NCBI RefSeq assembly: GCF_004804275.1
Contig: NZ_STGI01000003.1
Location: forward strand, 1-64,000
Direction of reading: 5' to 3'
Source: Herbaspirillum sp. ST 5-3
GTDB lineage: Bacteria; Pseudomonadota; Gammaproteobacteria; Burkholderiales; Burkholderiaceae_D
DNA: 64,000 bases
How positions within the stretch are numbered: position 1 is the stretch's first letter; each line of letters opens with the position of its first letter. The notes under the pieces were generated by a model that had not been told where the DNA came from, did not search any database, and saw only the letters and a list, made by a program, of their open reading frames with translations. The position numbers and the translations under genes were made by a program. This document shows, one piece after another, positions 24,163-30,060 of this stretch.

Positions 24163-24444
24163 TTCAATTTCTTCAAACCTGATGGCAAGGGTTTTGCGAG
24201 AAGCCTGTTGTCAGAAATCACAGTATGCGATTGCCCAATCGGTTTACTCTGGGCAGGCTGGCATAAGTACGGCGCTGCATGAGAGTGGTGCGCATCGTGG
24301 CAGATTGTCTCAACAAGTTCCGCTGAGTACATCTATCGCTGGTATGGATTATGCACACATTGCACCGGTCAAGCGTTCCGGCAGGTTTTTTTCTGCACCA
24401 CGCTCATGAATACGAAATGTGTGTCTGCGAGGAGATGATTGCCC

Positions 24445-26280
24445 ATGAAGCACGATGCGCGCTCCGACAACATGCCCGATCTGCAGCGGCGCCGACTTCT
24501 GCTCCGTCTGGGAGCACTTGGCGCTTACGCCGGAATAGCGCCGTATGCAACGATGGCGTGGGCTGCGGGAAGAGGAGAAGGACCACAGGTATTGCGTGGC
24601 AACGAATTTAATCTGGAAATCGCTCCGACGGCCGTCAATCTCACCGGTGTTCCCCGCATTGCCACCGCGGTCAACCACCAGGTTCCGGCGCCGATCCTTC
24701 ACTGGCGCCAGGGCGATACCATCACGCTGCGGGTTACCAATCGGTTGCCGGCAATCAGCTCCATCCATTGGCACGGGATACTGGTCCCGGCGGGAATGGA
24801 TGGTGTTCCCGGCCTGAGCTTTAATGGCATCGCGCCGGGAGAAACCTTCGTCTACCGATTCCAAGCGAAGCAGAGCGGCACCTATTGGTACCACAGCCAT
24901 TCACGGTTCCAGGAGCAGAGCGGGCTGTATGGGCCACTGATCATCGAGCCGCGGGGCGGCGAGCGTGTCCGCACCGATCGCGAACACGTCGTGATGCTGT
25001 CGGACTGGACCGATGTCGATCCGGAGTCACTGTTTGCAAAATTGAAGAAAATGAGCGACTTCTTCAATTTTAATCAGCCTACCGCGGCCGAATTCATGCG
25101 CGATGTAGCGAAGATGGGGCTTGCAGGCGCCATCGAAAAGCGCAGCATGTGGAACCAGATGCGCATGCTGCCGACGGACTTTAGCGATATCACCGGCGCT
25201 TCGCGCAGCGGCGTCTCATTTACCTACCTGGTTAATGGACACTCGGCATCCATGAACTGGACGGGGCTGTTCCAACGCGGAGAAAAGGTGCGGCTCCGCT
25301 TCATCAACGGTGCGGCGACGACGATTTTCGATGTGCGCATTCCGGGCTTGAAAATGACCGTGATTGCAGCCGATGGACAGGATGTCGAGCCAGTGACGGT
25401 GGACGAGATCCGGATGTCGGTGGCGGAAACCTACGATGTGGTGGTGGAGCCGCACGATGAACGCGCCTATACGATCTTTGCACAATCGATCGATCGTACC
25501 GGGTATGCGCGCGGCACGCTGGCACCGCGTGCTGGCATGCAAGCGGAGGTGCCGACGTTGGATCAACCACAGTGGTTGTCCATGACGGACATGATGGGCG
25601 CCATGGGCAGCATGAACGACAAGGAGGGATATCAGGGCACGAGTGATATGCCGGGCATGGATCACGCAAAGACGGATCACATGGACCATGCCAGCATGAC
25701 AGGAATGCAAGGGATGAGACATGGCGGCATGGCCGGAATGGCCAACAATCAGACCATGCCGCGTGTACGCCACGCGCGTACGGAATACGGGCCGGGTGTG
25801 GACATGCATGTAGATATGCCGCGGACCAATCTGGATGACCCCGGCGTTAACCTGCGTAACAACGGCAGGCGCGTACTGACGTATGCCGACCTGCACACCA
25901 TCGGCGGCCCGATTGATGCCCGCCCGCCGGCACGCGAGATCGAACTGCACCTGACCGGGAACATGGAGCGCTTCATGTTCTCCTTCGACGGGCAAAAGTT
26001 TTCGGAATCGAAGCCGGTCCATTTCCGCTATGGCGAGCGGCTGCGGCTGGTGCTGGTGAACGACACCATGATGAACCATCCGATTCACTTGCACGGCATG
26101 TGGGGCGAGCTCGAATCGCCTGATGGGCGGTTCCAGGCGCGCAAGCACACGATCAACGTACAACCGGCGCAGCGCGTTACCTATCTGGTCACTGCGGATG
26201 CGCCGGGAAGCTGGGCCTACCATTGTCACCTGCTTTATCACATGGAAGCGGGCATGTTCCGCGAGGTGGTCGTATCATGA
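24445..26280 (+). CDS. copA: CopA-type multicopper oxidase
   Basis: About 611 residues. A twin-arginine signal (RRRLLLRLGALGAYAGIAPY) leads into three cupredoxin domains. Copper sites are intact: HWHG and HSH in domain 1, and HPIHLHG and HCHLLYHMEAGM at the C-terminus. A Met/His-rich insert (about 385-440, with MDHAKTDHMDHASMTGM) is typical of CopA from cop operons and may sense or carry Cu(I). It should oxidise Cu(I) in the periplasm. A TTG at 24439 is an alternative start. Its stop overlaps the copB start (ATGA). Confidence 0.93.
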   Translation: MKHDARSDNMPDLQRRRLLLRLGALGAYAGIAPYATMAWAAGRGEGPQVLRGNEFNLEIAPTAVNLTGVPRIATAVNHQVPAPILHWRQGDTITLRVTNRLPAISSIHWHGILVPAGMDGVPGLSFNGIAPGETFVYRFQAKQSGTYWYHSHSRFQEQSGLYGPLIIEPRGGERVRTDREHVVMLSDWTDVDPESLFAKLKKMSDFFNFNQPTAAEFMRDVAKMGLAGAIEKRSMWNQMRMLPTDFSDITGASRSGVSFTYLVNGHSASMNWTGLFQRGEKVRLRFINGAATTIFDVRIPGLKMTVIAADGQDVEPVTVDEIRMSVAETYDVVVEPHDERAYTIFAQSIDRTGYARGTLAPRAGMQAEVPTLDQPQWLSMTDMMGAMGSMNDKEGYQGTSDMPGMDHAKTDHMDHASMTGMQGMRHGGMAGMANNQTMPRVRHARTEYGPGVDMHVDMPRTNLDDPGVNLRNNGRRVLTYADLHTIGGPIDARPPAREIELHLTGNMERFMFSFDGQKFSESKPVHFRYGERLRLVLVNDTMMNHPIHLHGMWGELESPDGRFQARKHTINVQPAQRVTYLVTADAPGSWAYHCHLLYHMEAGMFREVVVS

Positions 26281-27464
26281 TCCGGCTCCTTAAGAACAAG
26301 AAGAAATGGGCAAGCGCCTTGGTCGCTTGTTTTGCCATGGCTAAGCCTGGCTGGGTGCTTGCCCAGCACAACATGGCGGATATGCCTGGCATGCAAATGC
26401 CCGAGAATCAACAAAAGGACAGCGATCAATCACGCGAGAAAAAACGGAAGCCGCGCCGGGAGGAGTCCGGCAGCGAAAAGCCCTTGGACAGCATGTCGGG
26501 GATGGAGCACGGCCAAATGGACCGCGATCATATGGATCAAGGCACTGCACCTGCCCCAAAGTCCGGTATCGATCATGAAGGCATGCAAATGGCTCCTGCC
26601 CATGAGCAGGGGAGCGGGCATGACGGGATGGCAGGCATGGAACATGGTGTGAAGCACGAACCGCCAGAGCGTGCCCAGAATCAGCGCGGCATGCCGGGTA
26701 TGGCGATGGAACCGATTCCGGGGATGCAGATGGGACCGATGCAGGGCGGTCTGCCCGGGCCGGACGCGCGTGATCCTGATGCCTATGCGGAAGGAACGAA
26801 GAAAAAATCCCTGGGTGGGATGGAAATGCGTGATGATGAATTGTTCGGCCGAGTGCTCGTAAGCAGGCTCGAAGCCGTCGATGCTCGGCGTGAGTATGGA
26901 CAGAATCTGGAGGCGGAAGCGTGGTATGGCGGGGACTACCACAAACTTTGGCTCAAAGCCGAAGGGGAGCATCGAAATGGCCGCCTTGAACGTCTGCGTA
27001 CCGAGGCTTTATGGGATCGCGCGTTTGCGGCATTCTGGAGCACGCAGCTAGGTGTTCGGCATGACACCGGCCAAGGTGCTGCGCGCGATTGGATCGCGTT
27101 CGGCGTGCAGGGGCTTGCACCGTATTGGTTTGAAACGGAAGCAACCGCCTATTGGGGCAATGGCGGCACACTGGCGGCGCGGGCGGAATTCAAGTATGAA
27201 CTGCTTATCACGCAGCGGCTGATTTTGCAGCCGAGCCTGGAAGCCAATCTCTACAGCAGGAACGATCGGGCGCGGGGTATCGGATCCGGGCTAGCGGATG
27301 TCGAGCTCGGTTTTCGGCTGCGATATGAAATCAGGCGACAGTTCGCGCCCTACCTCGGGGTGGCGTGGAGGCGCAAGTTCGGCAATACGGCTGATTTCAC
27401 CCGCGATGCGGGCGGTAAGGTGCGGGAATCCGAGGTGGTCGCTGGGATTCGGATCTGGTTCTGA
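26277..27464 (+). CDS. copB: CopB outer-membrane copper-resistance protein
   Basis: A 395-residue protein. A signal peptide (ASALVACFAMAKPGWVLA) is followed by a long Met/His/Gly-rich N-terminal domain (MADMPGMQMP, MSGMEHGQMDRDHMDQG) to about residue 170. A CopB beta-barrel domain follows, with ARREYGQNLEAEAWYGGD and a C-terminal aromatic end (VAGIRIWF). It works with CopA in periplasmic copper detoxification and export. It is coupled to copA by an ATGA overlap. Confidence 0.92.
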   Translation: MIRLLKNKKKWASALVACFAMAKPGWVLAQHNMADMPGMQMPENQQKDSDQSREKKRKPRREESGSEKPLDSMSGMEHGQMDRDHMDQGTAPAPKSGIDHEGMQMAPAHEQGSGHDGMAGMEHGVKHEPPERAQNQRGMPGMAMEPIPGMQMGPMQGGLPGPDARDPDAYAEGTKKKSLGGMEMRDDELFGRVLVSRLEAVDARREYGQNLEAEAWYGGDYHKLWLKAEGEHRNGRLERLRTEALWDRAFAAFWSTQLGVRHDTGQGAARDWIAFGVQGLAPYWFETEATAYWGNGGTLAARAEFKYELLITQRLILQPSLEANLYSRNDRARGIGSGLADVELGFRLRYEIRRQFAPYLGVAWRRKFGNTADFTRDAGGKVRESEVVAGIRIWF

Positions 27465-27474
27465 CGAGGAAACC

Positions 27475-27960
27475 ATACACGGCGCGCGACAGATCCATGC
27501 AGCCTTGTCGATCGGCCTGCAGGTTGCGGTCGGGCTGGCATCGGTTGCGTGGTACGGCATTTACAATATCGCGGCTGACGATCTCCATACCGAAGTGACG
27601 CGCTCCGTGGTCGCTGTGATACGCGAGCGCTCGGTGAATGCCAGAGTGCGTGGTATTCAGAAACCCAAACTCGATACTTCCGGGAGACTTGCCTCAGGTA
27701 CGCGAGAATATGCCGAAATGTGTGCAGGTTGCCATCGTGCCCCCCGGCATGCCTGCGTCGGATATCGGACCGGCACTGAGTCTTCAAGCGTCCGATCTGA
27801 CTAAACGTCCCGTTCAGGATGCCGCTGAAACCTTTTGGATCATCAAGCACGGCATCAAAATGATGGGCATGCCGGCGTGGGACAAAAGCGATGATGATCA
27901 TACATATGGGATATCGTTACTTTCCTGAATCATCTGCCACAGGTATCAGCGGAGCAGTAG
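27475..27960 (+). pseudogene. decayed membrane-anchored class I cytochrome c
   Basis: An N-terminal anchor (IHAALSIGLQVAVGLASVAW) and a haem motif MCAGCH lie in one frame. The frame must shift near 27740, at a run of six C, to continue GMPASDIGPALSLQ and HGIKMMGMPAWDKS (the Met ligand). A second shift near 27900 is needed to read IWDIVTFLNHLPQVSAEQ up to the stop at 27958-27960. No ATG starts the reading frame; an ATA follows a GAGGA site. Sequencing error could explain one shift but hardly all three lesions. Confidence 0.75.
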
Positions 27961-28028
27961 CGGCAGTTGACAAACAATGCCGATGATAAACACGGCGAGT
28001 GAGCGGAATAAATTATGGGGAGAAGACA

Positions 28029-28538
28029 ATGAGAAATTCATATCGACGATATCTGTGCGCGGTGATACTGGGATATGCGGGTATGGTTTCGGCATTTGCG
28101 CATGGCGATCATAGCGGCTTTGATGACTTATTGATCGGTAAGGCCGGTGATCCACAGAACGTGACGCGTACTGTCAATATCGACATGTCGGACGAGATGC
28201 GTTTTAAGCCGGACAATATTACTGTGGAGAGGAATGAAACCATACGCTTTGTCATTGTCAACAAGGGCAGAGGGCCGCATGAATTCATGCTGGGAACAGC
28301 CAGGCGATTGAAGGAACATAACGAACGAATGAAGAGCAATCCAGATACCAAGCTCGACGCTCCTTATTGGATTTCTGTAGCACCGGGCGCAACCGGTGAA
28401 ATCGTCTGGAAGTTCTCCCAGACCGGGCAAATTGGCTTTGCCTGTTTTCAGCCCGGGCATTTTGACACTGGCATGAAAGGCGACATTCTCGTGCCTGTAG
28501 AAGCGCAGAAAGACGCGCCTCGGACAGTGGCACGCTAA
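28029..28538 (+). CDS. second periplasmic cupredoxin
   Basis: A 169-residue protein with a signal peptide (CAVILGYAGMVSAFA) and a cupredoxin domain. Type-1 ligands are His in GPHEFML and Cys, His and Met in FACFQPGHFDTGMKG. It is a clear paralogue of the cupredoxin at 21264-21743, sharing the GDPxxVxRTxxxDMxDxMR block. GGGGAG precedes the ATG at 28029. It has fewer His residues in its linker than the paralogue. Confidence 0.85.
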   Translation: MRNSYRRYLCAVILGYAGMVSAFAHGDHSGFDDLLIGKAGDPQNVTRTVNIDMSDEMRFKPDNITVERNETIRFVIVNKGRGPHEFMLGTARRLKEHNERMKSNPDTKLDAPYWISVAPGATGEIVWKFSQTGQIGFACFQPGHFDTGMKGDILVPVEAQKDAPRTVAR

Positions 28539-28655: not shown

Positions 28656-28934
28656 TTAAATGGCGGCATTGGCGGTGGCGAATTGTGTCGGACTGATTTT
28701 GAGGTCCGGCGGGATGAATCCGGCACCGATTGAGCCAACATTGTTCAGCACGTTGACACCAATGTTCTGGAGTTGGGTTATGTTCTGGTTGACGCCAACA
28801 TTGACGTTGGCGACAGGCCCCAGGCCTGCTAGCCAGGAATTCCCGCCTGTGGCTATTCCGCCACGAACGGCGAACATCGCCTGACGGTCAAGATCCTCGC
28901 TCTTGGCAAGGTCATGGATCACAATGGTCGACAT
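28656..28934 (-). CDS. double-glycine leader peptide, paralogue 1
   Basis: A 92-residue protein. Its first 26 residues match the two upstream paralogues in position and pattern: MSTIVIHDL, then EDLDRQAMFAVRGG with the Gly-Gly at 25-26. This resembles the leader of class II bacteriocins and microcins cut by C39 peptidase-type exporters. The downstream part is uncharged and Asn/Gly/Val-rich (VANVNVGVNQNITQLQNIGV) and differs from the other two. AAGGAG lies 8 bases before the ATG. No exporter or modifying enzyme is next to it. Confidence 0.7.
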   Translation of the reverse strand: MSTIVIHDLAKSEDLDRQAMFAVRGGIATGGNSWLAGLGPVANVNVGVNQNITQLQNIGVNVLNNVGSIGAGFIPPDLKISPTQFATANAAI

Positions 28935-28987
28935 GCTTGTTCTCCTTGGGACGGGGGAGGCGGTCGAGGCCTCCGCCCGGACATTGA

Positions 28988-29266
28988 TTAGTAGCCGAAG
29001 TTGATGGTGTTGGTGCCTGTCTGAGTCGGATTCACGTTGGCCGTGATGCCGGACGCAAAAGCGACGTTGTTGCCGTTGTTGACCACGGTTTCCTGGGACT
29101 GGCCGAGCAATTGCGATGCGTCGAAGCTGAAGTCGCTCTTCGAGATGCTGAAAAGCGGGCTGTAAGACGGCGTATAGCCTTTGCTGGTGCCGCCGCGTAC
29201 GGCGGTCATCGCTTTGCTGTCGAGTTCTGCGGTGACGGACAAGTCTTTGATGATCAGGATTGCCAT
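28988..29266 (-). CDS. double-glycine leader peptide, paralogue 2
   Basis: A 92-residue protein with the shared leader (MAILIIKDL, then AELDSKAMTAVRGG). The core begins TSKGYTPSYSPLFSI and ends with an Asn/Gln/Thr-rich region (ETVVNNGNNVAFASGITANV and TQTGTNTINFGY) that aligns closely with paralogue 3. TAGGAG precedes the ATG. There are no cysteines, so disulfide-type bacteriocin folding is excluded. A secreted antimicrobial peptide or an amyloid-like secreted protein are both open. Confidence 0.7.
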   Translation of the reverse strand: MAILIIKDLSVTAELDSKAMTAVRGGTSKGYTPSYSPLFSISKSDFSFDASQLLGQSQETVVNNGNNVAFASGITANVNPTQTGTNTINFGY

Positions 29267-29317
29267 TTCAAATCTCCTAAAAATGTGTGGGGGGGCCGTA
29301 AGCAGCGAACGCGGCGA

Positions 29318-29629
29318 TTAGCCGAATTTGATGTTGTTGCTGCCGTTTTGAGTCGGATGCACGTTGGCGGTGATGCCGGACACGAAAGCAGCGTTGTTGC
29401 CGTTGTTGACCAAGGTGTTCTGGCTCTGGTTAAGCGACTGCGACGCGTTGAAGTTAAAGTCGTTCTTCGTTACATCGGGCTGGGGGCTCCAGGAAGAAGG
29501 ATAGCCAGGCGAGTAACTCGAGGGCGAATACGGTCCGCAAGCGCCGCACATGCCGCCTTGGATGGACGCCATCGCTTTGCGATCAAGCTCTTCTGCCACA
29601 GGCAAGTCTTTGATGGTCAGGGTTTTCAT
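29318..29629 (-). CDS. double-glycine leader peptide, paralogue 3
   Basis: A 103-residue protein with the same leader (MKTLTIKDL, then EELDRKAMASIQGG). The core starts with a short CGACG motif and a Ser/Pro/Tyr-rich stretch (YSPSSYSPGYPSSWSPQP). It then carries the region shared with paralogue 2 (NTLVNNGNNAAFVSGITANV). The ATG overlaps the stop of the 120-residue ORF upstream (ATATGA) and has TAGGAG 7 bases before it. It is the first leader peptide of the likely four-gene operon. Confidence 0.7.
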   Translation of the reverse strand: MKTLTIKDLPVAEELDRKAMASIQGGMCGACGPYSPSSYSPGYPSSWSPQPDVTKNDFNFNASQSLNQSQNTLVNNGNNAAFVSGITANVHPTQNGSNNIKFG

Positions 29630-29988
29630 ATCAGTTCTCCTAATCGGGTGAAGTCTCGGGTTGGTGGTGAGCGTTGTGTTGCACTCGACAGGAGTACAGC
29701 AGGGAGCATGCCAGCGCCGCCCAGAGTGCGCAGTTGTACGCGTAAGCGTCTGAAATCATTGAGAAATGTGCCGATGCGGGCGGGTTTTTTGAGACGCGCT
29801 GGCCCGTCCCGACGTGGCCAACCAACGGCTCTGAGCCAACACACCACGGCGTACTGTTCGTCCGCTTGCAACTGATGCTGCTGAAGTATTTCGTATTGCC
29901 GACGAATTGCGGCGGGCAACTGGGATGAGCGCTGCATCAGCTTGATCTTGAGGATGGGGGACAGATCGCAGTCTTGCGCCGTAGACAT
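29626..29988 (-). CDS. 120-residue basic protein coupled to the leader peptides, unknown
   Basis: It encodes MSTAQDCDLSPILKIKLMQR followed by a helical charged region (RRQYEILQQHQLQADEQYAV) and an Arg-rich middle (WPRRDGPARLKKPARIG). I recognise no family. Its stop overlaps the start of paralogue 3, which argues that it is translated and belongs to the operon. It faces the FTR1 gene across 72 bases. A regulatory, immunity or chaperone role is possible but unsupported by any motif. Confidence 0.5.
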   Translation of the reverse strand: MSTAQDCDLSPILKIKLMQRSSQLPAAIRRQYEILQQHQLQADEQYAVVCWLRAVGWPRRDGPARLKKPARIGTFLNDFRRLRVQLRTLGGAGMLPAVLLSSATQRSPPTRDFTRLGELI

Positions 29989-30017
29989 GTCGATTCGCAC
30001 GCGTCTTAAAATTTAAA

Positions 30018-30032
30018 CTATAATCATTCTCA
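30018..30032 (+). promoter_or_regulatory. Fur-like box between FTR1 and the peptide operon
   Basis: CTATAATCATTCTCA matches 12 of 15 positions of the 7-1-7 Fur site TGATAATCATTATCA and contains a -10-like TATAAT (30019-30024) pointing to the FTR1 gene. On the minus strand TTGAAA (30049-30054) with GAGAAT 17 bases on gives a possible promoter for the peptide operon overlapping the same box. Confidence 0.6.
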
Positions 30033-30060
30033 TCTACTTGTCCGGTGATTTCAAAGTCCT

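Follow-up and report, generated by a model that had tools for sequence, protein, structure and literature searches.

Class II microcins and bacteriocins, e.g., MccV, combine a double-glycine leader with a C39-ABC exporter, HlyD and TolC-type parts. The double-glycine leader carries hydrophobic residues at positions −12, −7 and −4 and ends in GG. In Synechococcus elongatus PCC 7942, several small double-glycine proteins (EbfG1–4) are encoded in an operon and associated with the C39 peptidase transporter PteB; according to passages of PMC4997328 and PMC9981879, these proteins depend on the transporter and are needed for biofilm, and EbfG1–3 showed signs of amyloid when tested in E. coli. Caulobacter CdzC/CdzD, as portrayed in sections of PMC5380434, is a contact-dependent bacteriocin of paired small proteins with type I export and proposed surface assembly. 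Nostoc HetC fuses a cyclic nucleotide-binding (cNMP) domain to C39-ABC; parts of PMC10986499 indicate that exporters of this kind can depend on their cNMP domain. The NCBIfam family TIGR04500, comprising PpiC-type peptide maturation proteins, appears once, in a table, in PMC8939145.

Here we describe three peptide genes from a 64,000-nucleotide stretch of Herbaspirillum sp. ST 5-3 (hereafter, the window). They are a satellite of a bigger peptide system, which is real and well defined, while its function is a proposal made from sequence. The reading we favor, and hold to be somewhat on the probable side, is that the three genes constitute one transcription unit of a dispersed regulon, whose products would be transcribed from a sigma-54 promoter, exported by a C39-ABC protein and assembled at the surface or in the biofilm matrix. 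A word search of titles and abstract openings found, among the matches listed, no literature description of this peptide system, and PMC13174018 contains none of six Burkholderiales names.

The peptide genes and their family

The three co-directional minus-strand genes (C, B and A) run from window position 29629 to 28656:

29318–29629, minus strand: peptide C, 103 aa, NNGNN-type core, first gene of the unit, GG at residues 25–26
29552–29629, minus strand: leader of peptide C, 26 residues
28988–29266, minus strand: peptide B, 92 aa, NNGNN-type core, GG at residues 25–26
29189–29266, minus strand: leader of peptide B, 26 residues
28656–28934, minus strand: peptide A, 92 aa, second core type GPVANVNV...NQNITQLQN, GG at residues 25–26
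28857–28934, minus strand: leader of peptide A, 26 residues

The intergenic gaps measure 53 bp (A–B) and 51 bp (B–C), and a GGAG-type ribosome site can be read from the sequence before each gene. The common 26-residue N-terminus ending in Gly-Gly, described in the initial annotation, is present in all three proteins, with L15, M20, V/I23 and GG 25–26 satisfying the double-glycine leader rule. The Asn-rich block it had seen in two cores is likewise found: NNGNN...ITANV is common to B and C, and core A represents the other type. The window cores contain 0, 0 and 2 cysteines and are 66–77 aa long (~60–77 aa in the family).

Models of the three peptides and of their leaders identify 15 leader-peptide genes in six units of the Herbaspirillum genome, one extra weak match (E 0.07) being left out of this count. 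Three of them lie in the window, six at C23:453538–456721 (two units), two in C10, three in C3 and one in C4. The leader model built from the window trio hits 17 genome places at E ≤ 10: the trio itself at 5.9e-18 to 7.6e-17 (by construction), 12 others at 1.7e-14 to 3.9e-5, and the last two at 0.73 and 3.45. Four of the six units contain both the NNGNN-type and the second core type.

A single scan of GTDB species genomes produced 114 relatives, from which 74 distinct loci were kept; they span Noviherbaspirillum, Paucimonas, Massilia, Telluria, Caballeronia, Cupriavidus, Paraburkholderia, Burkholderia (three records) and three MAGs. Together with the window, four other loci of the same genome and four plasmid loci, these relatives form a set of 83 loci and 321 members, 303 of which have GG exactly at residues 25–26. 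Clusters contain up to nine peptide copies. A short core type with PDGEPVSVYVDGVL (L039:9736–9942; also L008, L055 and L071) follows the same leader; it is common to our genome and Cupriavidus necator, and occurs slightly changed in Paucimonas and an Oxalobacteraceae MAG. Caballeronia zhejiangensis possesses a lone leader gene with another core (L009:10001–10237), located after prp (2-methylcitrate) genes and preceded by a sigma-54-like site.

Searches of Pfam, NCBIfam and PADLOC give no useful match for the peptides, and PDB sequences give no match. A Pfam-type family search of 51 members returned two weak stray families only, with one member each. Screening against bacteriocin models, as proposed initially, did not speak for a bacteriocin: there is no Pfam match, and the NCBIfam model bacteriocin_sig scores 14.8 bits for peptide C only (cut-off 15.7).

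Promoters of the peptide units and the neighboring iron gene

Five further features lie upstream of the peptide genes:

29699–29713, minus strand: sigma-54-type −24/−12 promoter TGGCATGCTCCCTGC, 84 nt before the ATG of peptide C
29836–29841, minus strand: TGTTGG half-site, ~128 nt upstream of the −24 element; an enriched motif and possible enhancer-binding-protein site
29854–29860, minus strand: CGAACAG element, a weak, possible partner half-site; CGAACA occurs in four other units of the genome and in few relatives
30013–30031, no strand assigned: Fur-like box, 13/19 consensus positions; attributed to the FTR1 promoter rather than to the peptides
29626–30000, minus strand: ORF of 124 aa, probably not a gene; contains the sigma-54 promoter

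Sigma-54 promoters are characterized by TGG at −24 and, a fixed distance away, GC at −12. In all six units of the genome, TGGCAYRNTCCCTGC is located 82–90 nt before the first ATG, and the exact pattern occurs at six genome places, one before each unit. The reversed pattern, used as a control, is found nowhere at zero mismatches and twice at one mismatch; with one mismatch allowed, the promoter pattern itself occurs at nine further places. The 14 other genus genomes contain 28 exact sites. A leader gene follows 23 of them (21 identified by script, two from coordinates); one further site runs into a contig end, and the last four, all TGGCAT, have no leader gene after them. No exact site was found in four genus genomes that have peptides, and the reversed pattern yields one site in all 15 genus genomes together.

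The pattern TGGCAY-N7-GC, fixed in its final form after the sequences were seen, stands before 115 of 119 first genes, compared with 2 of 200 internal genes (both sets counting only genes whose upstream sequence reaches 250 nt or more) and, among 5950 shuffles, 26. Among the four first genes missing this looser site is a seventh, widely spaced gene of the Herbaspirillum genome (L036:10757). The window peptide unit probably has a sigma-54 promoter at 29699–29713, judging from these patterns. Further upstream, TGTTGG is present in 76 of 112 regions (4.35 in shuffles), TGTYG peaks near −130 and −160, and the TGTYG-N9-CRACA pair occurs 39 times in 115 regions, a raw count with no shuffle baseline. 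The TGTTGG and TGTYG elements are possible activator sites.

The peptides were initially connected with iron, as a possible Fur-controlled, siderophore-microcin-like set tied to the FTR1 permease, on the strength of a Fur-like box in a 72-bp gap between divergent genes. The box does exist at 30013–30031, where 13 of 19 positions agree with the Fur consensus (a score reached by 6 of 1000 shuffles of the 150 bp), but the 72-bp gap assumes that ORF 29626–30000 is a gene. This ORF is unlikely as a fourth gene, and probably no gene at all: the peptide promoter falls inside it, and neither Pfam nor NCBIfam has a matching family. Counting against its rejection, one of the 74 relative loci (L047) has, likewise immediately ahead of a peptide unit, 71 aa that match it at 41% identity, although this match could reflect conserved promoter DNA.

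FTR1 homologs are present in 9 of 15 genus genomes (11 places), and leader genes adjoin the window copy only. Similar boxes (12–15 of 19 positions) precede seven of the ten other homologs, including the second FTR1 of the same genome: four at −46 to −58 and three at −99 to −124, with three homologs having no box. The ~1.5 kb around each of these ten contain no leader gene, and the 74 relative peptide loci contain neither an FTR1 nor a CopI match. The link to iron thus comes down to gene position in this one genome. The Fur-like box seems to belong to FTR1, the peptide unit has a sigma-54-type promoter of its own, and a Ser-rich tail is not visible in the three peptide sequences. We have abandoned the Fur-controlled set, which we regard as extremely improbable. 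A neighboring Fur box can thus mislead, and the likely regulation is the promoter recurring before scattered units.

Two observations concern the metal-related genes themselves. The second FTR1-cytochrome c permease (C23:169140–171056) is 80% identical to the window copy and has no peptide genes within ~1.5 kb. Copper-related genes adjoin the peptides at window positions 24439–28538, encoding a multicopper-oxidase-like protein, a Met/His-rich protein and a CopI-like cuproprotein; the latter, the only one of these proteins compared with family libraries, scores below the CopI cut-offs.

The exporter and the main locus

The initial annotation noted that no C39 exporter is adjacent and recommended looking for one elsewhere in the genome. 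The first statement holds locally, but the search finds one C39-ABC exporter on the same contig, 382 kb from the window peptides. Four C39 matches are present in the genome, three of them above the Pfam cut-off, and only one has an ABC-length frame (1048 aa), the remaining frames being 305–341 aa long. The exporter combines C39, membrane and ABC domains with two cNMP domains, and contains the stretches DCGAAC, HYVVVYG and ADPA, which we take to be catalytic.

An ortholog of this exporter (78–100% identity, near full length) occurs in 29 of 294 family genomes. All 29 fall among the 34 genomes with peptides, and none of the other 260 has one (Fisher p 2.7e-35, kinship ignored). The 294 genomes are a sample, drawn twice in equal number with agreeing listed handles, by which we take the draws to be identical; one of the two scans scored two candidates per genome. 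Seven genera are represented by the 29 genomes, and in four of these (g3, g162, g169 and g171) some genomes have both peptides and exporter and at least one has neither. The next exporter class, among the matches listed, shows at most 40% identity and does not cover the cNMP part.

No ortholog was found in five of the 34 peptide genomes (G415, G452, G460, G608 and G616), whose completeness is 99% for G452, 91% for G608 and 81–86% for the other three; stop codons interrupt 3 of the 29 matches (G592, G459 and G617). In a phylum sample of 398 genomes, the ortholog class is confined to our genome, G158 and G255, the same three that have peptides among 399 genomes of the order sample. Six more genomes of the phylum sample contain distant relatives (34–38%) over most of the length. 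The distant cNMP-C39-ABC-like exporters L190, L191 and L192, elsewhere in the phylum, show 36–38% identity over most of the length.

The refuting condition named initially, that no carrier genome has an export peptidase, fails, because 29 of the 34 encode one specific C39-ABC exporter. The same co-occurrence, together with the leader positions, agrees with the C39 double-glycine class first assigned to the leaders. The window peptides are likely exported via the C39 route, by these sequence criteria.

Before the exporter gene lies one for a PpiC protein, scoring 95.9 bits against TIGR04500 (cut-off 180) and so a relative only; the gene directly behind the exporter encodes a sigma-54 activator containing a GAFTGA stretch. 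In this genome, ~33 kb separate the exporter operon from the start of the peptide locus and 37 kb from the peptides there; these peptides are 424 kb from those of the window on the same contig. Neighbors in relatives were counted at no more than 10 kb from the peptides by similarity to proteins of our genome, many of the 74 loci being cut short or satellites. On this basis, the exporter is found in 28, the activator in 28, PpiC in 26, PP2C in 19, kinase-DUF4384 in 37, kinase-MORN in 3, caspase-FGE in 44, the FHA protein in 32, DUF4399 in 43, the outer-membrane factor in 39 and HlyD in 16 of the 74. Our genome has every one of these components (domains checked), its main locus encoding two Ser/Thr kinases, PP2C, and FHA and FHA-GAF-HD proteins. 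The gene L036:14271–16403 fuses a caspase domain to an FGE-sulfatase domain, and its kin are those found near peptides in 44 relative loci.

A sigma-54 site is missing upstream of the exporter operon and of five of the six other control genes; the kinase-MORN gene alone shows a loosely matching site, at −135 (one of seven upstream stretches examined). The link from the activator to the peptide promoters is therefore one of position and co-occurrence only.

Such a set of kinases, PP2C, FHA and FHA-GAF-HD proteins could also be expected if the exported cores were signals, sensed by the producers and feeding these very proteins, and parts of PMC10986499 propose HetC, a cNMP-C39-ABC exporter, as a signal exporter in Nostoc. 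However, a signal would hardly need cores as large as ~60–77 aa or a redundancy of up to nine copies in a cluster, and we find a signaling role rather improbable. The caspase-FGE protein and the Ser/Thr kinases hint at yet another possibility, an anti-phage or programmed-death system with the peptides as effectors released via the caspase and kinases; the PADLOC kinase models PD-T4-6 and mad6 and a caspase model indeed match. These matches nevertheless look like generic kinase and caspase domains, the peptides match nothing in PADLOC, and a complete type I secretion set with sigma-54-type promoters points to export. We give a defense function very little credence.

Core properties, proposed function and comparison with known systems

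One similarity group takes in 272 of the 321 cores, with small groups besides. Profile alignments connect the B type with the A type (E 2.3e-6, probability 89), the A type with a third type (E 6.3e-6, probability 85) and, over 17 columns, the B type with the third (E 1.2e-4, probability 55), scores that common composition could raise. The motif Q-x3-Q-x-Q is present in 266 of 321 cores (4.0 in shuffles). Asn and Gln together make up 18.7% of core residues and charged residues 10.7%, compared with 7.0% and 25.5%, respectively, in six comparison proteins from the locus and the window. Any cysteine is found in 36 of the 321 cores. Median dN/dS is 0.32 for cores alone, with 652 of 665 pairs below 1, and 0.35 for whole genes (non-independent pairs of equal length and 60–95% identity); the cores are under constraint. 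AlphaFold2 gives no confident fold for peptide B (pLDDT 53.9, pTM 0.15) or A (pLDDT 52.4, pTM 0.16), which says nothing for assembly.

The strongest competitor to a matrix function would be multi-peptide bacteriocins, using the same export and acting as paired core types on the membranes of neighbors, in the manner of Caulobacter CdzC/CdzD. Double-glycine leaders and C39 exporters also occur in class II bacteriocins and microcins, and the two core types are found together in four of the six units. Sections of PMC5380434 describe a type I system for the Cdz peptides and surface aggregates for CdzC. Against this, GxxxG is found twice or more in only 11 of 321 cores, none of them from the window, the cores are constrained and numerous, and bacteriocin_sig gives a sub-cut-off score for one of the 15 members in this genome.

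The flanks (1.5 kb) of 100 clusters were also searched for immunity genes. Fifty groups of similar ORFs recur in at least five clusters, 26 of them mostly overlapping known locus genes. One of the other 24 occurs in 16 clusters and the rest in at most nine, and their median 19-residue hydropathy peak never exceeds 1.06, so that none looks like a membrane immunity protein. The test is a crude one, based on hydropathy, ORFs of at least 40 aa and no CdzI query; its negative outcome argues against a shared membrane immunity protein and is compatible with a small or variable one. On balance, we judge a bacteriocin function unlikely.

A surface or matrix function remains our preferred reading. Building on the computed gene family, promoter-like element, exporter co-occurrence, locus composition and core constraint, we infer the following course of events. 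Transcription would start from the sigma-54 promoter at 29699–29713, activated most likely by the enhancer-binding protein encoded behind the exporter gene, a step suggested by sequence patterns. The C39 domain of the single C39-ABC exporter in the genome would then recognize the 26-residue leader of the precursors and cleave it off behind Gly-Gly; export would proceed through a type I channel that includes two main-locus products, the HlyD protein and the outer-membrane efflux protein, as seems most likely from co-occurrence and the leader. Outside the cell, the mature cores, being low in charge and rich in Asn and Gln, would most likely assemble into surface or biofilm-matrix material of several related subunit types, by analogy with EbfG and from their composition. 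The peptides most likely serve as surface or biofilm material rather than in iron competition, and the amyloid-like secreted set, named second in the initial annotation, appears to fit better than its iron-limited antimicrobial option.

More speculatively, the system may represent a new functional amyloid or surface fiber of Burkholderiales. NNGNN-, VNVNQN- and WVFGWI-type (near PP2C) subunits would be distributed over six units and joined in one sigma-54 regulon controlled by kinases, phosphatase, FHA proteins and cyclic nucleotides, with a dedicated cNMP-C39 type I secretion in place of curli or Fap. We regard this extended version as tentative and would not yet bet on it. If the peptides do build matrix, soil- and plant-associated Burkholderiales would have a secretion route for surface material other than curli and Fap. 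A peptide family with no library name is tied here to a single exporter, a single type of promoter and a single control locus; substrate, exporter and regulator are therefore testable together.

Compared with class II microcins and bacteriocins, the system shares the double-glycine leader, C39-ABC, HlyD and TolC-type parts, but the crude test found no immunity-like gene, there is no family match, the promoter is of sigma-54 type and the cores are Asn/Gln-rich. A PpiC protein encoded beside a peptide exporter recalls the TIGR04500 maturation proteins, although ours, well below the family cut-off, is a relative only. With CdzC/CdzD, as far as described in PMC5380434, it has in common paired small proteins, type I export and proposed surface assembly, and Cdz is an example of killing by a comparable route; GxxxG repeats are, however, few here, the same crude test gave no immunity-like gene and the copies are many more. 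The fusion of a cNMP domain to C39-ABC is shared with HetC, as outlined in PMC10986499, but ours carries two cNMP domains and comes with clear candidate substrates. The likeness to EbfG/PteB, compared by the descriptions in PMC4997328 and PMC9981879, lies in the multi-gene small double-glycine proteins with a C39 peptidase transporter. Unlike that system, the present one has sigma-54-type promoters, six scattered units in one genome, and a cNMP-C39-ABC exporter accompanied by PpiC, kinases, PP2C, FHA and caspase-FGE proteins.
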